Assembly: GCA_036702865.1 (NCBI GenBank)
Contig: DATNQD010000086.1
Coordinates: 124,001 to 188,000, forward strand
DNA from: Trichocoleus sp.
GTDB lineage: Bacteria; Cyanobacteriota; Cyanobacteriia; Elainellales; Elainellaceae
DNA: 64,000 bases
Direction of reading: 5' to 3'
Numbering within the stretch: the first letter of the stretch is position 1; every line of letters starts with the position of its first letter. The notes below the pieces were generated by a model. It was given only the letters and a program-made list of their open reading frames with translations. It had not been told where the DNA came from and ran no database searches. This document shows positions 2,332 to 21,822 of this stretch, in pieces. A program made the position numbers and the translations under genes.

Positions 2332-4176
2332 CTAATGAACCGAGGAAGGTTGAACTGGCTCTTGCTGAGTTTGCACTTTAGGTGCGGGCTGCCAGCGTTT
2401 GAGTTGACTGACAACCAGTGCTGTGACGAGTGTGCCAAGCGCGATCGCAACAACATACAGTCCACCCTGAGTGACTGCGTTCGGAATTGCCAACACGAAA
2501 ACACCACCATGAGGAGCACGTAAGGTACAACCAAACAGCATTGAGAGTGCACCTGCCACCGCTGAACCCGCAACGCAAGCAGGAATGACCCGTAAAGGAT
2601 CTTTGGCAGCAAAAGGAATGGCACCTTCGGTAATAAAGGAAATTCCTAACACCCCTGCGACTTTACCTGCCTCATGTTCTTCCTGGGTAAACTGACGCTT
2701 TGCCAGGAAGGTGGCAAGTGCCAAACCGAGTGGGGGAGTCATTCCGGCTGCCATGACTGCTGCCATTGGGGCAAAAACGTTACTGGCAAGGAGTCCGACT
2801 GCAAAGGTGTAGGCGGCTTTATTGACTGGTCCACCCATATCAACTGCCATCATTCCACCCAGGATTAAGCCGAGAATTACGGCGTTGGTCTGTCCCATAT
2901 TTTGCAAGAAAGCTGTCATACCGTCCAAAATGGCTTTCACAGGTGCACCAAACACATAGAACAACAGCAAACCGACAACGAGCGTTGAGAGCAGTGGGAT
3001 GACCAAGACAGGCTTAAGCCCTTCAAAGTTGGGCGGCAGGTTGATCTTGTCTCGCACAAATCGAGCAATGTAGCCTGCCAGGAAACCAGAGAGAATCCCA
3101 CCCAAGAAACCCATGCCTAGATTTGAGGCTAACATCCCGCCTACCAGCCCTGGCGCTAGACCCGGACGATCGGCAATGGAGAAGGCAATGAACCCTGACA
3201 GCACCGGGACAATTAAAGCAAAGGCAGACTTACCGCCAATTTGCAGCAAGGCATCTCCGATCGAACCGGGTTCTGGCTTAAGTCCAAAAACAAAGGACAG
3301 GGCAATGATCAGTCCTCCTGCGACAATCACAGGCAGCATATAAGAAACGCCCGTGAGTAGATGTCGATAGGCTCCCGATCGTCTGGCAGATTGTTCGGAT
3401 TTTGCTTTCTGGACAGATTGCAGATAGTTCGGCTGCGAGTGATCTGAGTTAGTCGTTTGGGCGATCGGTTCGGGCAGGGCTAACGCCGATTCAATTACGG
3501 CGGCTCCGTCTTTGAGTGCCTGTTTTGTAGAAGTTTCATAGAGTCGCTTTCCGGCAAAACGTGAGAGATCGACGTGCGTATCAGCAGCAATCACCACAGC
3601 ATCCGCATGGGCAATATCTTCGTCAGTGAGTGTATTTTTTGCACCCACAGATCCTTGCGTCTCGACTTTGATCTCATGCCCTAACTGAGCTGCTCCCTTT
3701 CGCAGTGCTTCAGCCGCCATAAAGGTATGGGCAATTCCGGTGGGGCAGGAGGTAATGCCAACTAAGTGCTTGGGGGCTATTGATGTGCCTCCATTATTCG
3801 ATACTGCATTAGAAGATACCGAATTAGAAGATACCAGGGGAGGGACAGGGACAGCTTCAACTCGCGGTGCTTCAGCAATTGCCGCCTCAATTACCGATCG
3901 CGTATCCCGAATTGCCTTACTGGTGGAAACAGCATAAACTGGCTTACCTCGGAAGCGATCGAGATTGACATGAATATCGGCTGCAATGATCACTAAATCC
4001 GCTTCTGCAATTTCGGCGTCAGACAGTGCTTGTTGGACACCATTCGATCCTTGCGTTTCAACGCGCATTTCATAGCCCCTTGACTGGGCAGTCTGCTTTA
4101 AGGCTTCTGCTGCCATAAAGGTATGAGCAACACCAGTCGGACAAGCCGTAACTGCAACTATCTTTTGAATTGCCAT
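2332..4176 (-). CDS. fruA: PTS fructose transporter, EIIB'-EIIB-EIIC
   Basis: A 614-residue membrane permease that imports fructose and delivers it as fructose 1-phosphate. Two EIIB domains come first, residues about 1-100 and 135-235, each with the phosphocysteine loop ([10 protein letters not shown], Cys12; [10 protein letters not shown], Cys144). They are joined by a Ser/Asn-rich linker. The EIIC domain follows (about 270-600) with many hydrophobic helices and the conserved [11 protein letters not shown] and ITEGAIPFA segments. FruA of enterobacteria has the same order, but its first EIIB copy usually lacks the active cysteine; here both copies keep it. Start ATG has AAGGA upstream. It is the last gene of fruB-fruK-fruA, 78 bases after fruK. 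Confidence 0.95.
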
Positions 4177-4254
4177 TCGTTTTTCCTTAATCGTTCAAAA
4201 ATTATTCACAAATTGTTCACAGTGTTAGTTTGAAAAAACTGTTCGTCTCATGTT

Positions 4255-5196
4255 TCAACTCAAAATTTCAACGTTGACTTGTGCCGCAAATGCCTCCACG
4301 GTTTCTGGGGGCGGTAACCTGGGACCAACCTGGCTGAGTGCCCCGATCGAGAAAGCAGTTGCCAGTTGAGCACAGGCTGTCAATGGCAAGCCTCGCAGTT
4401 TTCCAGTCACAAACCCCGACACCATGGCATCTCCTGCGCCCACTGTGCTGACGACTTCAACCGGGGATGGGCTTGCCCAAACCGCCTGCTCTGCCTCAAC
4501 AAAAACCGCTCCTTTTGCTCCCATAGAAACCACCACAGTCCGAATGCCCTGAGCCAGCAAATCTCTTGCCGACTGCACAATTTCATTGACGCCATTGAGG
4601 GAGCGACCTAATAGCTCTTGCAGTTCGTCAATGTTGGGCTTAATTGCATCTGGAGCTGATCGAATTGCCTGCCGAAAACTCTCGCCACTGGCATCAATCA
4701 CAACCGTTTTTCCCTGAGCCTTGAGCTGTTTGATCAAATCAGCATAGATAGAAACCGGAACCTCCGCCGGTAAGCTGCCAGACAGCACAAACCAGTCATG
4801 ATCAGTTGCGAGTTGGTCGATCGCCTGATACAAAGCGGCAATATTCTCACGGCTCGGAGATTGACCTGGAAAGTTAATATCTGTCACCTGACTTTGAACA
4901 TCATCAATAATCTTGACGTTGATGCGAGTTTGACCAGGAATGAGAATGAACTGATTGATAATTGTTTTGCGATCGAAGAAGGTTTGAAACAGGGCGGCGT
5001 TTTCTTTGCCCAGAAAACCAGATACCGTGACCGGAAAACCAAAATCTCGCAGAAAGGATGCCACATTCACACCCTTTCCCCCCGGATCAGACTGTTCCCA
5101 TGCAACTCGATTCACTGCTCCTGCCCGAAAGTTGGGAATGGCAGCGGTTTGATCGATCGCCGGATTGAAAGTCACTGTTGCAATCTTTGGAGCCAT
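4255..5196 (-). CDS. fruK: 1-phosphofructokinase
   Basis: A 313-residue PfkB-family sugar kinase that converts fructose 1-phosphate to fructose 1,6-bisphosphate. It shows the first PfkB signature with GGKGVNVA near residue 39 and the second signature TVGAGDAMVSG near 251, where Asp256 is the expected catalytic base. The N-terminal TFNPAIDQ is typical of 1-phosphofructokinases and tagatose-6-phosphate kinases; its place between fruB and fruA settles the fructose role. An AGGAGG sequence overlaps the fruB stop codon and lies just before the ATG, so translation is probably coupled to fruB. Confidence 0.95.
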   Translation of the reverse strand: MAPKIATVTFNPAIDQTAAIPNFRAGAVNRVAWEQSDPGGKGVNVASFLRDFGFPVTVSGFLGKENAALFQTFFDRKTIINQFILIPGQTRINVKIIDDVQSQVTDINFPGQSPSRENIAALYQAIDQLATDHDWFVLSGSLPAEVPVSIYADLIKQLKAQGKTVVIDASGESFRQAIRSAPDAIKPNIDELQELLGRSLNGVNEIVQSARDLLAQGIRTVVVSMGAKGAVFVEAEQAVWASPSPVEVVSTVGAGDAMVSGFVTGKLRGLPLTACAQLATAFSIGALSQVGPRLPPPETVEAFAAQVNVEILS

Positions 5197-5205
5197 TCAG
5201 TCCTC

Positions 5206-7662
5206 CTAATTCCAGGTGAGGGTGCGGACTTCTTTTGCACTCCGACAACGAAGCGCCCGGCTTGCCAGATCCTCGGTTTGAGCAAACGACAGACCTCGCA
5301 GCTTTGCCTTAATTGCCGCTACGCTGGGAATACTGACGCTCAACTCGCGTACGCCTAATCCCGTCAAAATTGCGGCTCCTAACGGCTCTCCAGCAACACC
5401 ACCGCAAACCCCAACCCATTTGCCATGCGCTTTTGCTGCCTGTACCGTTTGATGAATCATTCGCAGCACTGCTGGATGCAGACCATCTGCTTGTTTTGCA
5501 AGTGCCGGATGTCCCCGATCCATCGCCAGCACATACTGCGTTAAGTCGTTTGTGCCGATCGAAAAGAAGTCAACCTGCTGAGCAAACTCATCCGCCATCA
5601 TCACCGCCGATGGCACCTCGATCATCATGCCGTATTCCACTGACTCAACCCCAACTTCCGATCGCACTTCCTCTGCAATCTGCTTTGCCAATTTCAGGTC
5701 TTCCAACGTGGCAATCATCGGAAACATGATTTTGATATCTCCGGTTGGGGCAGCCCGGAAGATCGCTTTTAGCTGAGTTCTAAACAAGTCCTGCCGCTGG
5801 AAGCAAAGCCGAATTCCCCGCACCCCCAAAAAAGGATTTTCTTCTGCGGGCAGGTTGAGATAAGGAACCGCTTTATCACCGCCAATATCTAAGGTGCGAA
5901 CGATCAGCGGCAACCCGTTGAGTGCCTGAGTCATCTGGCTGTAAGCGTCAAACTGCTCTGTTTCTGAAGGAGGTTCCTGCCGATTCAGGAATAGGAATTC
6001 GGTTCGGAGCAAGCCAACTCCTTCTGCTCCGGCGTTGACTGCCTGTTCTGCTTCCAAAGCACTGCCAATATTGGCAACCACCTCAACTCGATAGCCATCT
6101 GTTAACAGTGCAGGTTGATAGCAAGCCAGTTTCTCGGCTTCCCGAATTGCTTTGAGGTCTTGCTGTGCCGCTTTTGCCGTTGTCAGATCTGCCTCACTCG
6201 GATTCACATACAAATTGCCGCTCTCACCATCCAGAATGCAGCTTGTACCTTCCTGAAGATTGAGTACTGCCTCGCCTGCCCCCACGATCGCCGGGATATC
6301 TAGCGATCGGGCGATAATCGCAGAGTGGGAGGTTGCACCACCATAAGCTGTACAGAACCCCAATATCAAGGCTGGATTAAGCCCTGCGGTATCAGAAGGC
6401 GTGAGATCAGCAGCAATCAAAATGACCGGGTAATCGGGCAGAGGAGCTTCATCCTCGACTTCATCTGCAACCAGTCGCAAGACCCGCCGACCCACATCTC
6501 GCAAATCAGTCGCGCGTCCAGCCAGCAGCGGATCAGACAGCTGTTCTAGCGTTTTAGCACGTTCTTCGTAGGCTTGTTGCCATGCCCAGGCAGCACTACG
6601 ATCGTCCTTCAGCCAAACGAGAGCCGCCTGCAAAAGGTCTGGGTCTTCCAGAAACTCCTGATGCGCCTGAAAAATAAAGGCTTTTCCTTCTCCCGCTTTG
6701 ACTTTGACTTCTTCGTAGAGATCTTGCAATTGGGCTTTTGCCGCAGCAATTGCTTGTCGAAGTCGCGTTTCTTCAGCCGATGGATCTTTTGCAGTTGAGG
6801 CAAACACAATCTTGCCGCGCTTCAGTTGGTGGACTGGGGCGATCGCTAAGCCAGGAGAGGCAGCAATCCCCGGAATTGCAGGCGTGGTGAAGTGGAGCGT
6901 CCGTCCTAATGTGACAGCAGATGTTTCTTCTTCATCTTCCAATCCAGCTACAACCGCCGCTTCCAAAGTTGCGAGGGCTTCATCTTCATCCTTCCCTTGA
7001 GCCATGATGCGGATCGTTTGTCCACCTTCAACGCCTAGCTTCAGTAGCGAAATCAGACTCTTGACATCGGCAGTCTGGTTGCCCGATCGCACCCGAATTT
7101 CTGATGCAAACTGCTTTGCCTGGTTGACTAAAGCGGTCGCAGGGCGAGCATGTAATCCGGCTTTTCCAGCGATCGTTACATCAACAAATTTGGCAAAATC
7201 GGGGGTTGTATCCGGGGGGTGTGGGGCTTGAGTTGCGCCGTTGGTCAGGCTATGAATAATTTCTGCCGAGTTTGTTGTGTGAGCGAGCGATTCAACCGCA
7301 GCTTCATCACCCAAAATATGCGTCAGGTTTGCCAGAACCTCTAAATGTTCATCAGATTTTGCTGCAATCCCCACGACTAAACGAACCACTTCACCGGGGT
7401 TCCATTCCACACCATTTGGCAATTGCAGGACGGCAATACCCGTATCCAAAATCAAGTGACGATCGTTGGGTAAACCATGCGGAATCGCAATGCTGTTTCC
7501 AAGAAAGGTGTTGGCAACCTTTTCTCTCGACATCATGCTGTTGACGTATTCCGGCTGCATTCGTCCAGTGTTGACCAGTAAATCACCAACCTGTCGAATT
7601 GCGTCTGTTTTATCAGTTGCAGTAGCACCTAGCTTGACGCTTTTTTGATCTAATTGGAGCAT
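5206..7662 (-). CDS. fruB: Multiphosphoryl transfer protein EIIA(Fru)-HPr-Enzyme I
   Basis: An 818-residue cytosolic fusion that carries phosphate from PEP to FruA. Residues 1-145 are EIIA of the fructose type with active His62 (AIPHG). Residues about 158-245 are HPr with His171 (GLHARPA). Residues about 263-818 are Enzyme I, with the swivel histidine His446 (GGATSHSAIIAR) and the PEP-binding barrel (LLRTEFLF, GVCGGVAGE). All three active histidines are present. Because Enzyme I is included, the operon needs no separate ptsHI genes. No clear Shine-Dalgarno is seen; instead a perfect inverted repeat directly precedes the ATG. It is the first gene of the fru operon. Confidence 0.95.
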   Translation of the reverse strand: MLQLDQKSVKLGATATDKTDAIRQVGDLLVNTGRMQPEYVNSMMSREKVANTFLGNSIAIPHGLPNDRHLILDTGIAVLQLPNGVEWNPGEVVRLVVGIAAKSDEHLEVLANLTHILGDEAAVESLAHTTNSAEIIHSLTNGATQAPHPPDTTPDFAKFVDVTIAGKAGLHARPATALVNQAKQFASEIRVRSGNQTADVKSLISLLKLGVEGGQTIRIMAQGKDEDEALATLEAAVVAGLEDEEETSAVTLGRTLHFTTPAIPGIAASPGLAIAPVHQLKRGKIVFASTAKDPSAEETRLRQAIAAAKAQLQDLYEEVKVKAGEGKAFIFQAHQEFLEDPDLLQAALVWLKDDRSAAWAWQQAYEERAKTLEQLSDPLLAGRATDLRDVGRRVLRLVADEVEDEAPLPDYPVILIAADLTPSDTAGLNPALILGFCTAYGGATSHSAIIARSLDIPAIVGAGEAVLNLQEGTSCILDGESGNLYVNPSEADLTTAKAAQQDLKAIREAEKLACYQPALLTDGYRVEVVANIGSALEAEQAVNAGAEGVGLLRTEFLFLNRQEPPSETEQFDAYSQMTQALNGLPLIVRTLDIGGDKAVPYLNLPAEENPFLGVRGIRLCFQRQDLFRTQLKAIFRAAPTGDIKIMFPMIATLEDLKLAKQIAEEVRSEVGVESVEYGMMIEVPSAVMMADEFAQQVDFFSIGTNDLTQYVLAMDRGHPALAKQADGLHPAVLRMIHQTVQAAKAHGKWVGVCGGVAGEPLGAAILTGLGVRELSVSIPSVAAIKAKLRGLSFAQTEDLASRALRCRSAKEVRTLTWN

Positions 7663-7981: not shown

Positions 7982-9178
7982 TTATGATCGATTTCTTGGC
8001 AATGTTGCAATTCCTCGTTTCAACAATTCCGCCTCTAATCCTTGAATAAACCTCAGATCTGCCTCCGGTAAGCTTGCCGAATCAGCGCTTTGTTGCAAAA
8101 AATTGAATGCCTGGCGAAACTGCGATGGCTCGATCGCGATCGGTGCAGCAAAATGGCAGGGAATTACTTGCCGAAAGTCCCATTGAGCAACTCGATCTGC
8201 CCACTGAAGAACCTGCTGCGAATCTTGCGGTAAAATCAGGGTTTGCAGAATTGGCGCAACAAACGGACGCCCTTTTGCATGGAGCGCCTCAAATGACTGC
8301 TGCCAGTTTTCTTGCCAGTGAAAAGGAAACAGCCCCAAATAGCCTTTGAGCGATCGATCGGCAGCTTTCCAGGCGGTTTGTAAGGTCTGTTTGATGCCCA
8401 GTAAATCGAGCGTAGCCGGACGGAAGTAGATTGCAAATAGGGCGATTCGCTGCCATCCTTTACGACGATTTGCCTCATTGTCAATCATGGCGTCTACAGC
8501 GCTGTCTCTGGCATGAAAGAGGAGCGGATAGGGGTCAAGCTGGACGATCGGCGGCGGGTCTTCTGGCACAGCCAGCAAGGTATCAGTCACGAGGAGGGTC
8601 TGCGATCGTTTATGCAGCATTGCCACTTCTGCAAACGAGCCACGCCCCAGATCAATATCCAGCACTGCATAGTCAAACTCAGCAGCAAAGGGGGCTTGAG
8701 TGCTGTCTTCTGGCAAAATATGGGTTCGTTGAGCCGGAAACCCCAGCCACCGCAATGGCAGATCGATCGGGAAACTCCACTGATGTGGCGCAATAAAGAC
8801 TTGTGCAGTGGGAAACTGTCGGGCAAAGGGTCCAACAAAGACCTTGTGCTCTAAGCCTGAACTGGTTGGCAAAATGATGTACTTAACTTCACCATGCATT
8901 GCCACAAGCTCTTTCACCAGGCGGATACATTCTCGGGTTGGCGCTACCGGAGCATAGACCAGTAGACCTCCTGTCTCCAGCTTCACGATCGTCATGCGAA
9001 TCGGCACGATCGTATAAAGAATGCCTTGAATCTGATCAAAGGTCCAAATCTGATCCTTGACCACTTCCTGCCGCAATGTGCGCCGTCGACTATGGGGATA
9101 AAGTGGCAAAGCCAGCCAGAATCGCCAGAACGAATCTCCACGACTGGGTTGAGGTATCTGTGACGATCGGTTTAGCAT
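7982..9178 (-). CDS. DUF4336 domain protein (metallo-hydrolase-like fold)
   Basis: A 398-residue protein that I recognise as a DUF4336 protein, a family shared by cyanobacteria and plant plastids with a distant metallo-beta-lactamase-like layout. The N-terminus has Trp- and Arg-rich lead sequence (FWRFWLALPLYP). The core begins near GILYTIVPIRMTIVKL and continues with GEVKYIILPTSSGLEHKVF, LLVTDTLLAVP, and near the C-terminus QVIPCHFAAPIAI. No signal peptide is seen. The catalytic activity is unknown. GGAGG lies five bases before the ATG. It is transcribed away from the sensor kinase at 9708. Confidence 0.8.
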   Translation of the reverse strand: MLNRSSQIPQPSRGDSFWRFWLALPLYPHSRRRTLRQEVVKDQIWTFDQIQGILYTIVPIRMTIVKLETGGLLVYAPVAPTRECIRLVKELVAMHGEVKYIILPTSSGLEHKVFVGPFARQFPTAQVFIAPHQWSFPIDLPLRWLGFPAQRTHILPEDSTQAPFAAEFDYAVLDIDLGRGSFAEVAMLHKRSQTLLVTDTLLAVPEDPPPIVQLDPYPLLFHARDSAVDAMIDNEANRRKGWQRIALFAIYFRPATLDLLGIKQTLQTAWKAADRSLKGYLGLFPFHWQENWQQSFEALHAKGRPFVAPILQTLILPQDSQQVLQWADRVAQWDFRQVIPCHFAAPIAIEPSQFRQAFNFLQQSADSASLPEADLRFIQGLEAELLKRGIATLPRNRS

Positions 9179-9707: not shown

Positions 9708-12269
9708 ATGCAAGACCTTATAAGAAACCTTATTTTTTCAGGACCCTTTATCCCTCATGGTCATTGCTACCTCTGGAAACCTGGCTTAGTTTGGCTACAT
9801 GTCAGTTCTGATGCGCTGATCGCCCTTGCCTATTATTCCATTCCGCTGACGCTATTCTACTTCGTTCGCAAGCGGAAAGATCTACCGTTTCATGGAATAT
9901 TTCTGCTGTTTGCTGCCTTCATCGTTGGTTGTGGCACAACCCATCTCGCCGAAATTTGGACGCTCTGGTATCCCACTTACTGGCTATCTGGTTTACTGAA
10001 GGCAGGAACAGCGTTTGTCTCTATGTTCACTGCGCTAGAACTAATCCCCCTCGTTCCGCAAGCCCTGGCGCTACCCAGCCCCGCCCAGCTTGAACAGGCA
10101 AACGAAGAACTTAAACAGTCGCGCAATCAGCTTGAACAACGGGTGCAGGAGCGAACCGCTGACCTGGCAAAAGCCAATGCTCAATTGCAGCAGGAAATCC
10201 AGGAGCGGCGGCATACGGCAGAGATTTTGAGAGAACGGGAAGAGCGATTTCGGCAGCTCGCAGAAAATATTCATGAAGTCTTCTGGATTGCCGACCCGCA
10301 GCAGGCACAGATGCTTTACATCAGTCCGGCTTACGAAACGATTTGGGGACGTAGCTGTCAGAGTTTGTATGAGCACCCAGAAACCTGGCTATCGACTGTC
10401 CACCCTGACGATCGCAAACGCCTTAAACGAGCAGTCGGTCGCATCCGTAGTGGAGAGCATCAGCTCAACGAGGAGTATCGCATCATTCGCCCGGATGGTG
10501 AGTTTCGATGGATCTGGGCAAGAACTTCGCCCGTCCAGAATGAGGCAGGTCAGGTTTACCGGATTGTGGGAATTGCCGAAGATATTACCGATCGCAAGCG
10601 AGTAGACCAGGAGCGAGAAGATTTGCTCAAACGCGAGCAGGCAGCAATGCTAGAGATTGCAAACCTCAACCGTGATCTGCAAGACCGCGTTAACGAACTG
10701 CAAACCCTGTTTGAGGTCATCCCGATCGGCATTTTGATGACCAACGATCCAGAGTTTAAGCACATTCAATCGAATCCTTCTTTCTCCAAGATTTTAGGCG
10801 TTTCTGATCACAATGCTTCCTGTACACCGCCTGAAGCAAATCCTCGTCCCACCTACAAAATCTTCCGCGATGGCAGAGAGCTGTCTCCGAATGAAACGCC
10901 GATCCGCTACGCTGCAATTCATGGCGTCAATGTCGAAGGGGTTGAGGTCGATATTTTGCGAGGAGACGGGGTACTGTTTAACCTGTATGGCTTCGCTTCG
11001 CCCTTGTTTGATGAACAGCAGAAACCGAGAGGGGCAGTCGGTGCATTTTTGGATATCACCGATCGCAAACAAGCAGAAGCCGAACGAGAACAGCTGCTCG
11101 AACGAGAACGAATTGCCCGGGAACAGGCAGAAGCCGCTAACCAAATTAAAGACGAGTTTCTGGCGGTGCTTTCCCACGAATTGCGAACTCCCCTCAACCC
11201 GATTCTGGGCTGGACAAGACTTTTGCGAACCGGCAACCTGAACCAGGAAAAAACAGAACTGGCGCTAGAGACGATCGATCGCAACGCCAAACTTCAAACC
11301 CAACTGATCGAAGATCTGCTTGATATTTCTCGAATTTTACAAGGCAAACTCACCCTGAATGCTTCTCCAGTTGATTTGACCGTGGCGATCGAGGCAGCCA
11401 AAGAAACGATTCGTCTGGCAGCAGAGGCGAAATCAATTCAAATTCAGACTGAGCTGCAATCCACGCCGCGCCAGGTAATGGGCGATCCAAATCGACTGCA
11501 GCAGGTCATTTGGAACCTTCTCTCAAATGCGGTCAAGTTTACGCCTGCCGGAGGACAGGTCAAAGTCACGCTGCAATATGTTGGCACACAAGCCCAAATT
11601 CAGGTGATTGATACCGGAAAGGGCATTACGCCTGACTTTTTACCTTATGTCTTTGATACATTCCGGCAAGCCGATGGCACCACAACTCGCAAGTTTGGCG
11701 GACTGGGGTTGGGGCTGGCGATCGTCCGGCGAATTGTTGAATTACATGGCGGCATTGTGCAGGCTGAAAGCCAGGGTGAGGACAGAGGAGCAGCCTTCAC
11801 GGTTTGGCTGCCGCTTATTACGGAGACGCTACAAATCAATTTAGAAAACAGGCAGTTGTCCAGTAGCTTAGATCTAGAGGGCGTCCAAGTTTTAGTGGTG
11901 GACGACGAAGCAGATACCCGCACCCTGGTTGCTTTTATGCTAGAGCAGCGGGGAGCCAAAGTCATTGCAGTATCTTCAGCCGCAGAAGGGCTACAGCAAA
12001 TCCAACAGGCGAAACCCGATGTCATCTTAAGCGATATTGGAATGCCAAACGTTGATGGCTACAGCTTCATCCAGCAGGTTCGATCGCTCAAGGCAGAACA
12101 GGGAGGAACCATTCCAGCAATTGCACTTACGGCTTATGCGGCTGAGTTTGATCAAAAGCAAGCGTTTGATGCAGGTTTTCAAATGCATATTGCCAAACCA
12201 ATGGAAATGGATGTGTTGATGAGTGCTATAAAGCAGCTTGTAGTCCGTCATCCGGTTCATCCTTCCTGA
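9708..12269 (+). CDS. Ethylene-receptor-like hybrid histidine kinase
   Basis: An 853-residue membrane sensor. Residues about 25-115 form three hydrophobic helices like the ethylene-binding domain of plant ETR1 and cyanobacterial SynEtr1. Asp35, Pro46, Ile72, Cys75 and His79 match ETR1 Asp25, Pro36, Ile62, Cys65 and His69 with a constant offset of ten; Cys and His are the copper ligands in ETR1. A coiled coil (125-175) follows, then two PAS/PAC units (about 180-295 and 325-455). HisKA has His490 in LSHELRTP. The HATPase has WNLLSNAVKF and GLGLGLAIV. A C-terminal receiver has DD 732-733, Asp776 and Lys830, all intact. No GAF domain is present. Ethylene binding is inferred from the residues, not shown. 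No good Shine-Dalgarno precedes the ATG. Confidence 0.9.
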   Translation: MQDLIRNLIFSGPFIPHGHCYLWKPGLVWLHVSSDALIALAYYSIPLTLFYFVRKRKDLPFHGIFLLFAAFIVGCGTTHLAEIWTLWYPTYWLSGLLKAGTAFVSMFTALELIPLVPQALALPSPAQLEQANEELKQSRNQLEQRVQERTADLAKANAQLQQEIQERRHTAEILREREERFRQLAENIHEVFWIADPQQAQMLYISPAYETIWGRSCQSLYEHPETWLSTVHPDDRKRLKRAVGRIRSGEHQLNEEYRIIRPDGEFRWIWARTSPVQNEAGQVYRIVGIAEDITDRKRVDQEREDLLKREQAAMLEIANLNRDLQDRVNELQTLFEVIPIGILMTNDPEFKHIQSNPSFSKILGVSDHNASCTPPEANPRPTYKIFRDGRELSPNETPIRYAAIHGVNVEGVEVDILRGDGVLFNLYGFASPLFDEQQKPRGAVGAFLDITDRKQAEAEREQLLERERIAREQAEAANQIKDEFLAVLSHELRTPLNPILGWTRLLRTGNLNQEKTELALETIDRNAKLQTQLIEDLLDISRILQGKLTLNASPVDLTVAIEAAKETIRLAAEAKSIQIQTELQSTPRQVMGDPNRLQQVIWNLLSNAVKFTPAGGQVKVTLQYVGTQAQIQVIDTGKGITPDFLPYVFDTFRQADGTTTRKFGGLGLGLAIVRRIVELHGGIVQAESQGEDRGAAFTVWLPLITETLQINLENRQLSSSLDLEGVQVLVVDDEADTRTLVAFMLEQRGAKVIAVSSAAEGLQQIQQAKPDVILSDIGMPNVDGYSFIQQVRSLKAEQGGTIPAIALTAYAAEFDQKQAFDAGFQMHIAKPMEMDVLMSAIKQLVVRHPVHPS

Positions 12270-12347: not shown

Positions 12348-12848
12348 TTATGGTGTTGATTTCAATTTATCTAAGAGTGCAACAATTTGTTCATAAACAG
12401 ATTCATGGGTGTATTCATCATCTGGGTGAGGAGGTTGTCCCGGAGTTTGAAAATGAGGACGCTCATCGTATATCTGTCCCCATCTGACATCCACCTGTTG
12501 CACAAGCTCGTACAGCAGTTCTGAGTGATTAATGATCGATTCTAAAATATTTTGCAATGCCATTAAAGGAGCAGCGAGACAGGCGCTAATCTGGGCTTCG
12601 TCATCTCTGATTAAATCTTGCAAAACCGCTTGCAAAGCGCCAGGAGAATCGACTAAATGATGATCAATAAAACGGTTGATTTCAGTTCTTGCCTGCAATA
12701 GCCTCGGCACGGGTGACTCTCCCTTGAAGAAATTCCCGCCTTCTCGACCAATCACCTCCGCCAACGAGAATTTGCGATCGGACAAAACATCTTGCTGGAG
12801 CTGATCGCTAAAGTCGTTGTCTGGCTGAGAGGTCATTGTGCTTTGCAT
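12348..12848 (-). CDS. Uncharacterised 166-residue protein downstream of sensor kinase
   Basis: I do not recognise the family. The protein is soluble, acidic and mainly helical, with a hydrophobic helical core (LQAVLQDLIRDD, LMALQNILESIINHSELLYELV) and a Pro-rich bend (TPGQPPHPDDEY) before a C-terminal helix. It starts 20 bases after the stop of the 732-residue kinase on the same strand, so the two are probably one operon and it may act with that kinase. A second ATG at 12836 is equally possible. It is convergent with the ethylene-receptor-like kinase. Confidence 0.65.
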   Translation of the reverse strand: MQSTMTSQPDNDFSDQLQQDVLSDRKFSLAEVIGREGGNFFKGESPVPRLLQARTEINRFIDHHLVDSPGALQAVLQDLIRDDEAQISACLAAPLMALQNILESIINHSELLYELVQQVDVRWGQIYDERPHFQTPGQPPHPDDEYTHESVYEQIVALLDKLKSTP

Positions 12849-12868: not shown

Positions 12869-15067
12869 TTAGCTTGTGCTGATTGGCATATTTTCAGCAG
12901 AATAAGGAAAGTGAACCGTAAACGAAGTAGACTGATTGCCGCTTTCAACCTGGATTGTAGCGCCCAGACGGTTTACCAGTTTCTGCACGAGCGCCAGACC
13001 TAACCCAGTTCCGCCATACTGCCAGGGATCAGCATTGGGAATCCGATAAAATCGTTCAAAAATTCGCGGAATTTCCGCTGGATCAATTTCAACGCCGCTA
13101 TTTTGCACTCCAACTGCAAAGCTTAGTTGAGTCGATCGAGCAAAGAGGGTAATTGTTGCTCCTGCAGGAGAATATTTGCAGGCGTTGTCGATCAATTCGG
13201 TCAAAACGCGATCGAGATAAAGCAGGTTCGTGGTAAGTAACGGCAGATTGCGTTCGACCGCCAGTTCTATCTGCTGCCGATTTTGGGTTCGCTCAATCAG
13301 GGGTGACATCCTTTGTTGCAAATGAGCTGCAATGTCGATCGGTGTTAGTTCTAGCGGTTCGGTTTCGGTATCAAGCTGAGAGATATCGAGCAGGTCATTA
13401 ATCAGTTTTGCTTCACGCTGGCATTCATTCTGAAGAATTTGAAAATAGCGCTCGACCATGGGGTAATTAAATGCTTCGGCTTGGTTCAGCGCAATCTCTA
13501 GCATCTGAGTTGCCATTCTAATATTTGCGATCGGGGTACGCAGTTCATGCGAAACCGTACTGAGAAAATCATCTTTGAGTCGGTTTAGTTGTCCCAATTT
13601 AATCACTTGATTCTGTGCCGCCTGGTAAAGTCGAGACTGGCGAATTGCGATCGCACACTGGTTCGCGACCTGCTGCACTAAACGAATATCTACTGCGGTA
13701 TAAGCGAAATCTGCACGATGAATTAGCCAAAGATCGCCTAGAATGCCCTGATCATCTTGAATTGGACAGGCAAGCTTAGAAGAGTTGTCTGGTTGGGATG
13801 ATGGAGCAAAAGGACAAAACTGAAAGTACTCTCCCTGTAGAAGTTGCTGATAGCCCGGCGGGAAATCGCTCATGGGGATTGTGTAGCTCCGGAATGAAGC
13901 GGCCGTGCTGCTGTATTCATAGCAAATTGTCGAAGTACGCTGCGCCAAGTCATAAAGAGCAGCATTGCAAGTGTTTACGCCAATCGCCCGCGTCAGTTCC
14001 TCCACCACCGTTCGTAAAATATTGGCTTCATCCAGGCTATCCCTGACCCGATCGGTAATTCGCTTGAGCGTTGCCTCAAAGTCATAGGCTTGCTGAAGCT
14101 GAGCAGTCCGTTCTGCAACCTGTGCTTCTAAATCTAAGTTGAGTCGCTGTACCTGCTCATACAGTTCAGACTGTTGAATTGCAATAGTGACTTGGTCTAC
14201 CAGGTGAATCAACCAATCCACTTCCCAAGTTTCCCAGTGCCGAGGAGCAGCACAATGTTGGGCAGCAAGCAGCCCCCACAAAGCGTCGTTTTGCAGAATT
14301 GGAATAACTAGATTTGCCCGAACCTGAAGCTCTCTCAATAAATCTACATAGCAGGGAGCAAACCCAGCAGTATCGATATCTTCGGTATTCCCTATATATC
14401 CTTCTTGATAAGGAATGATGCACTGTTCAGGGGTGAGGCATGGGTCAAGGATTCTCCGACCGAGTACCGAAATCCAATCATTGCCAACGGATTCCGCGAT
14501 CACAATACCACTCCAGTCAGGTGCAAATTGATAAATTACAACGCGATCGGTTTGTACTAGTTGCCGAATTTCGTTGACTGCTGTACTCAAGACATCATTG
14601 AGGTTTAGCGATTGACGAATGCGCCTTGTAATGGAAGATAAAATTCGTTCCCATTCTGCCTGCTGCCGTTGAGCAATTCCACTTCCCGACTGTAGCTGCT
14701 GTTGCAGAGCGCGATACTCCAAGGCGCTTTTAATCGCAGTGAGCAGTTCCAAACGATGAAACGGTTGCACCAGCAACCCAAATCCTTCTGCCCCGATCGC
14801 CTGTGCTGCGTGTTCTGCATCACTTGCAACGAAGTAAATCACTGGAATTTGTAGTTGAGCAATCTGCTCAGAAATTCTTTGTCTTGCTTTTTCTCCTTTT
14901 CGAGTAATCTTCATCAAGATTAGATCAAGCGGGTTTGTCAGTGCGATCTCTAACGCAGCCGAAGCAGAAGGAACGATCGCAAAAAGCTCGTAATCTGTGC
15001 CCTGCAGGAAGTCTCGAATTTTTCGAGCAGAAGCACGGTTTGCTTCAACCACTAAAATCGTTGCCAT
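12869..15067 (-). CDS. Sensor histidine kinase with degenerate receiver and cyanobacteriochrome-like GAF
   Basis: A 732-residue protein. Residues 1-115 fold like a receiver, but the phosphoacceptor site reads LILMK (Lys53 where Asp is usual) and the conserved Lys is Gln101, so it should not be phosphorylated normally. Residues about 140-300 are a GAF of cyanobacteriochrome type: WSGIVIAES, a DPCL motif (Cys210) at the place of the DXCF cysteine, and PCYVDLL (Cys239) at the canonical bilin cysteine followed by Tyr instead of the usual His. A second GAF spans about 325-480. HisKA has His507 (VSHELRTP), and the HATPase has the usual IDNACKYSP and GGTGLGLALV. No membrane segment is seen. Bilin binding is inferred. 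Confidence 0.85.
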   Translation of the reverse strand: MATILVVEANRASARKIRDFLQGTDYELFAIVPSASAALEIALTNPLDLILMKITRKGEKARQRISEQIAQLQIPVIYFVASDAEHAAQAIGAEGFGLLVQPFHRLELLTAIKSALEYRALQQQLQSGSGIAQRQQAEWERILSSITRRIRQSLNLNDVLSTAVNEIRQLVQTDRVVIYQFAPDWSGIVIAESVGNDWISVLGRRILDPCLTPEQCIIPYQEGYIGNTEDIDTAGFAPCYVDLLRELQVRANLVIPILQNDALWGLLAAQHCAAPRHWETWEVDWLIHLVDQVTIAIQQSELYEQVQRLNLDLEAQVAERTAQLQQAYDFEATLKRITDRVRDSLDEANILRTVVEELTRAIGVNTCNAALYDLAQRTSTICYEYSSTAASFRSYTIPMSDFPPGYQQLLQGEYFQFCPFAPSSQPDNSSKLACPIQDDQGILGDLWLIHRADFAYTAVDIRLVQQVANQCAIAIRQSRLYQAAQNQVIKLGQLNRLKDDFLSTVSHELRTPIANIRMATQMLEIALNQAEAFNYPMVERYFQILQNECQREAKLINDLLDISQLDTETEPLELTPIDIAAHLQQRMSPLIERTQNRQQIELAVERNLPLLTTNLLYLDRVLTELIDNACKYSPAGATITLFARSTQLSFAVGVQNSGVEIDPAEIPRIFERFYRIPNADPWQYGGTGLGLALVQKLVNRLGATIQVESGNQSTSFTVHFPYSAENMPISTS

Positions 15068-20192: not shown

Positions 20193-20846
20193 CTACCGTT
20201 TTCTCACTTGATGTGCCAGTCGATCGCCCACAAACTGAACGACCTGCACTAAGCCAATCAACAACAGAACCGTAATAAGCATGACTTTGGTATCAAACCG
20301 CTGATAGCCATAGCGAATTGCCAGATCGCCCAAGCCCCCTCCCCCAACGACCCCTGCCATCGCGGAGTAGCCAATCAAGCTGATGACCATAATTGTCAGT
20401 CCCAAAATCAGAGACGGTAGCGCTTCCGGGATCAGCACCTTGAAGATAATTTGCCAGTAGGTGCAGCCCATCGCTTCTGCCGCTTCAATCAAGCCGCGAT
20501 CGACTTCTAACAGGGAAGTTTCTGAAACTCTGGCAAAGAAGGGAATCGCAGACAAAGTGAGGGGCACTAGAGCCGCCGTGCTGCCGATCGTTGTTCCAAC
20601 AATGAGACGGGTCAGGGGAATGATGGCAACCAGCAAAATGATAAAGGGAAGCGATCGACCGATATTTACAACCGATCCCAGAAAACGCTGAAAGCCTGGA
20701 TTGGGGAGGAAGCCTCCGGGCGAAGTTATCACTAGAAGCAAGCCCAACGGCAAACCCAGCAAAGCGGCTAATACTGCGGAAACGCTAACCATGTAGAAGG
20801 TTTCGAGGGTTGCTGCCCACAGGCTGCTCAGAAGTTGCCCGTCCAT
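20193..20846 (-). CDS. metI: Methionine ABC transporter permease
   Basis: A 217-residue inner membrane permease with about five hydrophobic helices. The cytoplasmic loop contacting the ATPase is EAAEAMGCTYWQIIFKVLIPEALP, the usual EAA motif of importers. The segment VVGGGGLGDLAIRYGYQRF is typical of MetI. The open frame begins further upstream at a TTG (20876), but the ATG at 20846 has GGAGGG upstream and fits the family length. It overlaps the metN 3' end by about 60 bases, so the two are translationally linked. Transcription order is metQ-metN-metI. Confidence 0.93.
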   Translation of the reverse strand: MDGQLLSSLWAATLETFYMVSVSAVLAALLGLPLGLLLVITSPGGFLPNPGFQRFLGSVVNIGRSLPFIILLVAIIPLTRLIVGTTIGSTAALVPLTLSAIPFFARVSETSLLEVDRGLIEAAEAMGCTYWQIIFKVLIPEALPSLILGLTIMVISLIGYSAMAGVVGGGGLGDLAIRYGYQRFDTKVMLITVLLLIGLVQVVQFVGDRLAHQVRKR

Positions 20847-21822
20847 TTTGTCCCTCTCCCTCCAGGTGTAACTCAATCTCCAGACGATGCAGGTATTCCA
20901 GCGCAGGCTTCACTTCTGCCCCAGATAATTCGAGTTGAAATTGTCCAACCGATTGCCCCCCAATCGTTTCTATGCTGCCGCTCAAAATACTCACCTCAAT
21001 CTCAAATTCGCGGATCAGGTGCGTCAGAATTGACTGGCTATTTGCACTCCCCTGGAAAGCAATGGTGACTAAAACAGAACCAGAACGCGATCTTGTATCG
21101 GTACGACGCGGAAAGAAATCTTGTGCCAGTCGAGAAAGAGGTTGAGCCGCCAGATCAACAACCCGACCGCGCTCAATCACTCTGCCCTGCTCTAGAACTG
21201 CAACCCGATCGCAAATTTGTTTCACAACATTCATATCATGCGTGATCAGCAGGATCGTCAGGCCCATTTGTTGGTTTAAATCCCGCAGTAAATCGAGGAT
21301 CGATCGCGTTGTTTGCGGATCAAGTGCAGAAGTTGCTTCGTCAGAAAGCAAAACTTTGGGATTCGCCGCTAAGGCTCTGGCAATGCCAACCCGCTGTTTT
21401 TGTCCGCCTGAAAGCTGTGCCGGGTAAGCGTTTCCTTTACCTTCTAACCCAACGAGTGCCAAAAGTTCTTCAACCCGCGCTTTGCGGCGCAATCGGCTAT
21501 CCCCCATGACTTCAAGCGGGAAGGCAATATTTTCGGCGGCTGTGCGGCTACTCAGTAAGTTGAAGTGCTGAAAGATCATGCCAATCCGGTGTCTTGCCTT
21601 TCGCAAATCTGCTCCAGACAGAGCCGAGATCTCCTGCCCATCGACAATCACTTTGCCAGAAGTCGGGGTTTCCAGACGGTTAATACAGCGAATCAGCGTA
21701 CTTTTGCCTGCGCCACTTTGCCCAATCACCCCAAAAATTTCGCCTTGCCGGATCTCTTCGCTAAAGTTTTCTAGCGCGACGAATTGACCATAAACCTTGC
21801 GTAGCTCATGAATTGTGATCAT
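20785..21822 (-). CDS. metN: Methionine ABC transporter ATP-binding protein
   Basis: A 345-residue ATPase driving methionine uptake. Walker A is GQSGAGKST (34-42), the signature LSGGQKQR (near 137), Walker B is KVLLSDEATSALD, and the switch His is in LLITHDMNVV. Residues from about 255 to the end form the extra NIL/ACT-like domain that in MetN senses internal methionine and inhibits transport. It lies 27 bases downstream of metQ. Confidence 0.95.
   Translation of the reverse strand: MITIHELRKVYGQFVALENFSEEIRQGEIFGVIGQSGAGKSTLIRCINRLETPTSGKVIVDGQEISALSGADLRKARHRIGMIFQHFNLLSSRTAAENIAFPLEVMGDSRLRRKARVEELLALVGLEGKGNAYPAQLSGGQKQRVGIARALAANPKVLLSDEATSALDPQTTRSILDLLRDLNQQMGLTILLITHDMNVVKQICDRVAVLEQGRVIERGRVVDLAAQPLSRLAQDFFPRRTDTRSRSGSVLVTIAFQGSANSQSILTHLIREFEIEVSILSGSIETIGGQSVGQFQLELSGAEVKPALEYLHRLEIELHLEGEGQNGRATSEQPVGSNPRNLLHG

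Follow-up and report, generated by a model that had tools for sequence, protein, structure and literature searches.

The 64,000-nucleotide window of Trichocoleus sp. DNA analysed here (contig DATNQD010000086.1) carries at 9708–12269 a gene for an 853-amino-acid sensor kinase, and the question raised by this locus is whether its product could sense ethylene in the manner of the plant receptor ETR1. A preliminary description had called it an ethylene-receptor-type sensor kinase with Asp35, Pro46, Ile72, Cys75 and His79 at the ETR1 spacing and a constant offset of ten residues. According to the present analysis the gene probably encodes a copper-dependent ethylene receptor of bacterial type, its copper and ethylene binding being deduced from sequence features.

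Ethylene-binding residues

The residues required in ETR1, which we take to be D25, Y32, I35, P36, I62, C65 and H69, all have counterparts in the 853-amino-acid protein, namely D35, Y42, I45, P46, I72, C75 and H79, at a constant offset of ten. The comparison was made by BLASTP with residues 1–133 of ETR1, and 39 of 94 positions were identical (41%, E 2e-21). The offset is ten throughout because the alignment is ungapped from residue 34 to 93, while it is seven at K98 (K91 of ETR1) because the loop between helices 2 and 3 is three residues shorter than in ETR1. The spacing given in the preliminary description was thus confirmed, and Asp, Cys and His do co-locate with the ETR1 residues. Seven residues are required for ethylene binding by AtETR1 (PMC6682694); D25, C65, H69 and K91 are named in PMC11819568 and I35, P36 and I62 in PMC6586836. 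Chance resemblance to an ethylene-binding domain was ruled out by the low E value of the ETR1 alignment and because the Pfam ETR1_N match reached 144.2 bits (E 1.5e-42) against a curated cut-off of 27.

Domain layout and predicted structure

The ATG of the 853-amino-acid frame aligns with that of L059, a 719-amino-acid frame that starts at the first matched residue. The catalytic motifs of the kinase are intact (H490, N607, DTGKGI at 635–640 and GGLGLGL at 664–670), as are those of the receiver (SDIGMP at 775–780 with D776, AKPME at 829–833 with K830; Response_reg E 5.4e-24). With ETR1_N above cut-off, the seven residues and an intact kinase core, the protein is a bacterial ethylene-binding-domain histidine kinase, and the attached receiver with its phosphoacceptor Asp and conserved Lys makes it a hybrid kinase. 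Pfam found no GAF domain at E ≤ 0.001, so it is neither a plant-type ETR, which has a GAF between the membrane domain and the kinase, nor of the SynEtr1 type with a bilin-binding GAF (cyanobacteriochrome). The complete hybrid kinase with intact receiver that had been read from the sequence was therefore borne out by the HisKA, HATPase_c and Response_reg matches together with the motifs; the absence of the GAF of plant receptors and SynEtr1 held as well, yet this layout proved ordinary (see below).

AlphaFold2, run with 43 sequences, predicted helices at residues 2–10, 17–20, 25–55, 62–85, 91–121 and 125–160 with a mean predicted local distance difference test score of 91.2, the last helix being likely a coiled coil towards the PAS domains. 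In this model the second half of helix 2 contains C75 and H79, which would face outward if the N terminus is outside, the topology that we assume from ETR1. A published ETR1 model places one copper per monomer near C65/H69, with infrequent contact of D25 and with water occupying one or two of the copper coordination places (PMC6586836). The search for a solved relative in the PDB by phmmer gave a single hit with E 0.34, Foldseek found no match to the predicted domain at E ≤ 0.001, and VIA-align reached a Z of at most 9.0, with generic helical bundles.

What has been shown for this protein comprises its homology, its residues, the order of its domains, the intact state of the catalytic motifs and the predicted helices. 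The initial classification is supported by homology and architecture and by the identity of the residues, and from the sequence we infer the function with good confidence.

Conservation and distribution of the family

To judge how strictly the binding residues are kept, 88 domains found by searching the genomes of relatives (the 40-genome set) were used, of which 87 could be aligned (L213 did not). D35 was retained in 77 of these, Y42 in 82, I45 in 85, P46 in 67, I72 in 82, C75 in 83 and H79 in 86. The set was complete in 54/87 domains and incomplete in 33/87, so family membership is no guarantee of all seven residues; the 853-amino-acid protein belongs to the fully equipped majority. The natural variants, carried by L027, L058, L157, L160, L162 and other loci, include Asn at D35 (8/87) and Ser at P46 (17/87), and their effect on ethylene binding is apparently worth a test.

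The ethylene-binding domain was present in 31 of the 40 relatives' genomes, its own genome counted, and in 90 of 386 genomes sampled across the phylum (88 above the cut-off). Receptors with this domain have been described before and are frequent in cyanobacteria; the gene at 9708–12269 is one more well-preserved member. The same 5.93-Mb genome has two ethylene-receptor-type genes, both with seven of seven residues. A scan of named genomes confirmed at least 577 stretches of 582 candidates, and the best 80 were retained as named loci, which are cyanobacterial by record title or by genus and thereby point to a cyanobacterial origin of the window. These are not a random sample: they head a ranking by resemblance to the window domain (66–83% identity) and were found partly through the pattern PHGHCYLW, and they were therefore kept out of the motif statistics. 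Two uncharacterised homologues align end to end, L071 of Stenomitos rutilans (849 amino acids, 58% identity, the same order of Pfam domains) and L070 of Calothrix HK-06 (839 amino acids, 51% identity).

A Pfam scan of 72 proteins, 71 from the best 80 loci (L082, L104, L108, L085, L086, L087, L093, L114 and L123 were omitted) plus the one studied here, detected ETR1_N in 72, HATPase_c in 70, HisKA in 60, a receiver in 33 and GAF in 2; GAF_2 and GAF_3 also occurred in two each. The GAF-less layout was accordingly rejected as a special feature, because the Pfam GAF is so rare here and AzoEtr1 of Azospirillum brasilense works as a domain–PAS–kinase protein (PMC11819568). Phage records gave no match. 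Nine IMG/VR contigs, classed as viral, had distant ethylene-binding domains (27–44% identity). Ser was found at P46 in five of the seven aligned domains of the IMG/VR loci L139–L145.

Proposed mechanism and alternative explanations

In the probable ethylene receptor, Cu(I) would be coordinated by C75 and H79 within the three membrane helices, H79 being positioned by D35 of helix 1, and this copper would bind ethylene. The signal would pass through helix 3 (K98), the coiled coil and the PAS domains and alter autophosphorylation at H490. Since the motifs are intact, the phosphate would be transferred from H490 to D776 of the attached receiver. It would then reach a response regulator encoded elsewhere; this partner and the direction of the kinase change are presumed. 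Three HMA-domain hits were found in the same genome, in frames of 776 and 825 amino acids (the length of P-type ATPases) and of 69 amino acids, and these proteins would be suited to copper handling.

Several observations weigh against an ethylene receptor. Certain relatives retain the ETR1_N domain despite the loss of C75 or an Asn at D35, so the fold alone is no proof of ethylene sensing; the nine neighbouring open reading frames (ORFs) scanned include no stand-alone response regulator, and across the best 80 named loci none of the flanking genes is clearly retained beside the receptor. It could also be supposed that the membrane domain does bind Cu(I) while its natural signal is copper itself or another small Cu(I) ligand. 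General chemistry knows several small ligands of Cu(I), and the domain is widespread in cyanobacteria. Nevertheless, ethylene at levels as low as 8 nL per L reportedly elicits responses in Synechocystis and Geitlerinema, two cyanobacteria that possess such domains (PMC6682694), a response of Azospirillum through its receptor is also reported (PMC11819568), and all seven residues are retained in the 853-amino-acid protein, which makes another signal unlikely.

The presence of one clear PAS and a second, weaker PAS region between the membrane domain and the kinase, as well as a paralogue with several PAS domains and a GAF, would fit a protein that senses redox, oxygen or light chiefly through its PAS domains and uses the membrane domain mostly as an anchor. 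A pure anchor, however, would not need all seven ligand-site residues, and the incomplete sets in 33/87 aligned domains demonstrate that these can change, so we regard this arrangement as quite improbable. Loss of ethylene signalling by a receptor that is still produced is hardly credible for this copy: although the family does include degenerate copies (in a set deliberately enriched for low scores, 29 of the 162 rows that aligned had lost C75), this one is intact in every motif examined and its domain remains close to those of the best 80 named relatives. A copper-dependent ethylene receptor is the explanation that we prefer.

The N-terminal HGxC motif

A short motif, PHGHC (P16–C20), precedes the membrane helices and occurs in nearly all close relatives, H17, H19 and C20 each being present in at least 90% of 20 rows. 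In the 40-genome set, which was not chosen for HGxC because the Pfam match begins at residue 27, C20 was conserved in 79, H17 in 76 and H19 in 77 of the 84 rows with a letter there. H17 and C20 are thus retained nearly as well as C75 and H79, the copper ligands. Among eight plasmid-borne relatives (six proteobacterial, one cyanobacterial and one from Deinococcus), seven had HGxC, and the Deinococcus row had no letters at these positions.

Co-loss with C75 was analysed in a set of 163 domains, of which 162 aligned: the 40-genome set, 40 hand-picked, mostly low-scoring domains (short or interrupted frames excluded), 27 loci from the 386-genome sample and the eight plasmid loci. Considering rows with a letter at C20, this residue was kept in 117/121 rows with C75 versus 11/24 without it, and H17 in 112/121 versus 7/24. 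Permutation within bins of overall divergence gave p < 0.0001 both for the full set of rows and after clustering at 80%, 0.0003 at 70% and 0.0087 at 60%. From 70% clustering upwards, C20 and G18 outranked all control sites, with W23, K98, T101 and Y42 close behind.

Other data argue against a link of the motif with the copper site. At 50% clustering (14 rows) the coupling fell to p = 0.19; at 60%, C20 and G18 (both about 1.8) ranked below T101, W87 and W23, and only H17 (2.85) led; and even at 70% the control W23 covaried with C75 nearly as strongly as C20 (3.1 versus 3.24). C20 was also kept despite the loss of C75 in L201, L217, L219, L222, L223, L228, L230, L234, L235, L247 and L252, and H19 was replaced in the six proteobacterial plasmid rows (V, Y, F, Y, M, F), His occurring only in the cyanobacterium. 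For low-scoring rows the alignment of the N terminus is uncertain, and shared ancestry was only partly removed from these statistics. The link is suggestive, and HGxC may serve as an accessory site for copper or have a structural role. That bacterial receptors carry a second metal-handling site absent from plant ETR1, formed by H17 and C20 (and H19 in cyanobacteria) at the outer lip of helix 1, is a tentative and rather doubtful idea. Such a site would catch Cu(I) from outside the membrane or add a ligand or lid over the C75/H79 copper, and copper loading in bacteria would then differ from that in plants. A disulfide role has alternatively been proposed for the single N-terminal Cys (PMC6682694), and no mention of a second metal site was found in the available parts of the openly licensed literature, including PMC6586836 and PMC12586476.

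Genomic neighbourhood

The features of the gene and its surroundings are collected in Table 1. Thirteen window ORFs, the receptor gene included, were compared with the best 80 named loci (E ≤ 1e-10; several loci have short flanks), and besides the receptor only the GAF-kinase gene (56 loci) and the ORF at 20785–21822 (15 loci, best matches 33–40%) gave matches. A conserved neighbour was sought in these loci and none was clear. The best match of the GAF kinase (47% identity, others being lower) is a kinase region upstream of the full-length homologue in L071; apart from this, no neighbour that L071 or L070 shares with the 853-amino-acid gene was found. Fructose-type phosphotransferase system (PTS) genes also lie in the window; a PTS is uncommon in cyanobacteria.

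Table 1. Coordinates of the receptor gene, its functional sites, neighbouring genes and the paralogue (positions in the window unless a locus is given)
Feature	Position	Strand	Description and evidence
Hybrid histidine kinase with ethylene-binding domain	9708..12269	+	853 amino acids, ATG start, no internal stops
PHGHC motif (P16–C20)	9753..9767	+	HGxC form conserved in bacterial domains; unaligned in ETR1; predicted short helix 17–20 before helix 1
ETR1_N ethylene-binding domain	9786..10073	+	Residues 27–122, Pfam; predicted helices 25–55, 62–85, 91–121
D35 codon (ETR1 D25)	9810..9812	+	Alignment
C75 codon, copper ligand position (ETR1 C65)	9930..9932	+	Alignment; PMC11819568
H79 codon, copper ligand position (ETR1 H69)	9942..9944	+	Alignment; PMC11819568
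K98 codon (ETR1 K91, AzoEtr1 K98)	9999..10001	+	Alignment; PMC11819568
First PAS domain	10242..10592	+	Residues 179–295; Pfam PAS_3 203–290, PAS 179–293, PAS_9 192–295
Second, weaker PAS region	10653..11078	+	About residues 316–457, bounds by eye; two PAS_9 stretches in Pfam
HisKA dimerisation and phosphoacceptor domain	11148..11342	+	Residues 481–545, H490; Pfam and motif reading
HATPase_c	11481..11816	+	Residues 592–703, N and G boxes intact; Pfam and motif reading
Receiver	11889..12233	+	Residues 728–842; D776 phosphoacceptor (codon 12033–12035), K830
Fructose-type PTS cluster	2332–7662	−	EIIB-EIIC 2332–4176, PfkB kinase 4255–5196, EIIA-HPr-EI fusion 5206–7662
DUF4336 protein	7982–9178	−	Directly upstream of the receptor gene; Pfam
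166-amino-acid protein	12348–12848	−	No Pfam or NCBIfam match at E ≤ 0.001
GAF-GAF histidine kinase	12869–15067	−	Converges on the receptor gene; weak receiver match, 27.8 bits versus cut-off 30.2
Paralogue	L148:3715–7470	−	1251 amino acids; PAS domains, GAF, HisKA_2 kinase; different contig, adjoins a receiver-kinase gene

Significance and comparison with known receptors

With this gene, the family thought to be the source of plant ethylene sensing gains a well-preserved hybrid receptor that has no GAF. Unlike SynEtr1, it does not couple its ethylene input to a light-sensing GAF, which would make its biochemistry simpler, and mutation of HGxC offers a simple way to test how receptors of bacteria acquire or hold copper. 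Apart from this lead, the 853-amino-acid receptor is ordinary.

AzoEtr1, for which saturable ethylene binding has been reported, shares D35, C75, H79 and K98 at identical positions, the lack of a GAF and a PAS ahead of the kinase; it is shorter (525 amino acids), has a single PAS and no receiver of its own, and a separate response regulator gene lies downstream, whereas the present protein has two PAS regions and an attached receiver (PMC11819568). Its domain is 53.5% identical to the window domain over residues 11–124. The plasmid locus L149 of A. brasilense Sp7, presumed to be AzoEtr1, aligned with all seven residues and K98, plus H17 and C20.

GeiEtr1 and GeiEtr2 of Geitlerinema PCC 7105 are likewise cyanobacterial ethylene-binding-domain kinases with all seven residues, and GeiEtr2 has PAS and receiver domains as well; compared by description, both differ in having a GAF, for which Pfam gave no match here (PMC6682694). 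SynEtr1/UirS/PixA of Synechocystis (slr1212) likewise joins a cyanobacterial ethylene-binding domain to a histidine kinase but, again by description, carries a light-sensing cyanobacteriochrome domain, in contrast to the GAF-less protein studied here (PMC6682694). Arabidopsis ETR1 shares the seven binding residues at constant offset, the kinase and the receiver, and it differs by its GAF, by two N-terminal cysteines in place of HGxC and by the longer loop between helices 2 and 3.
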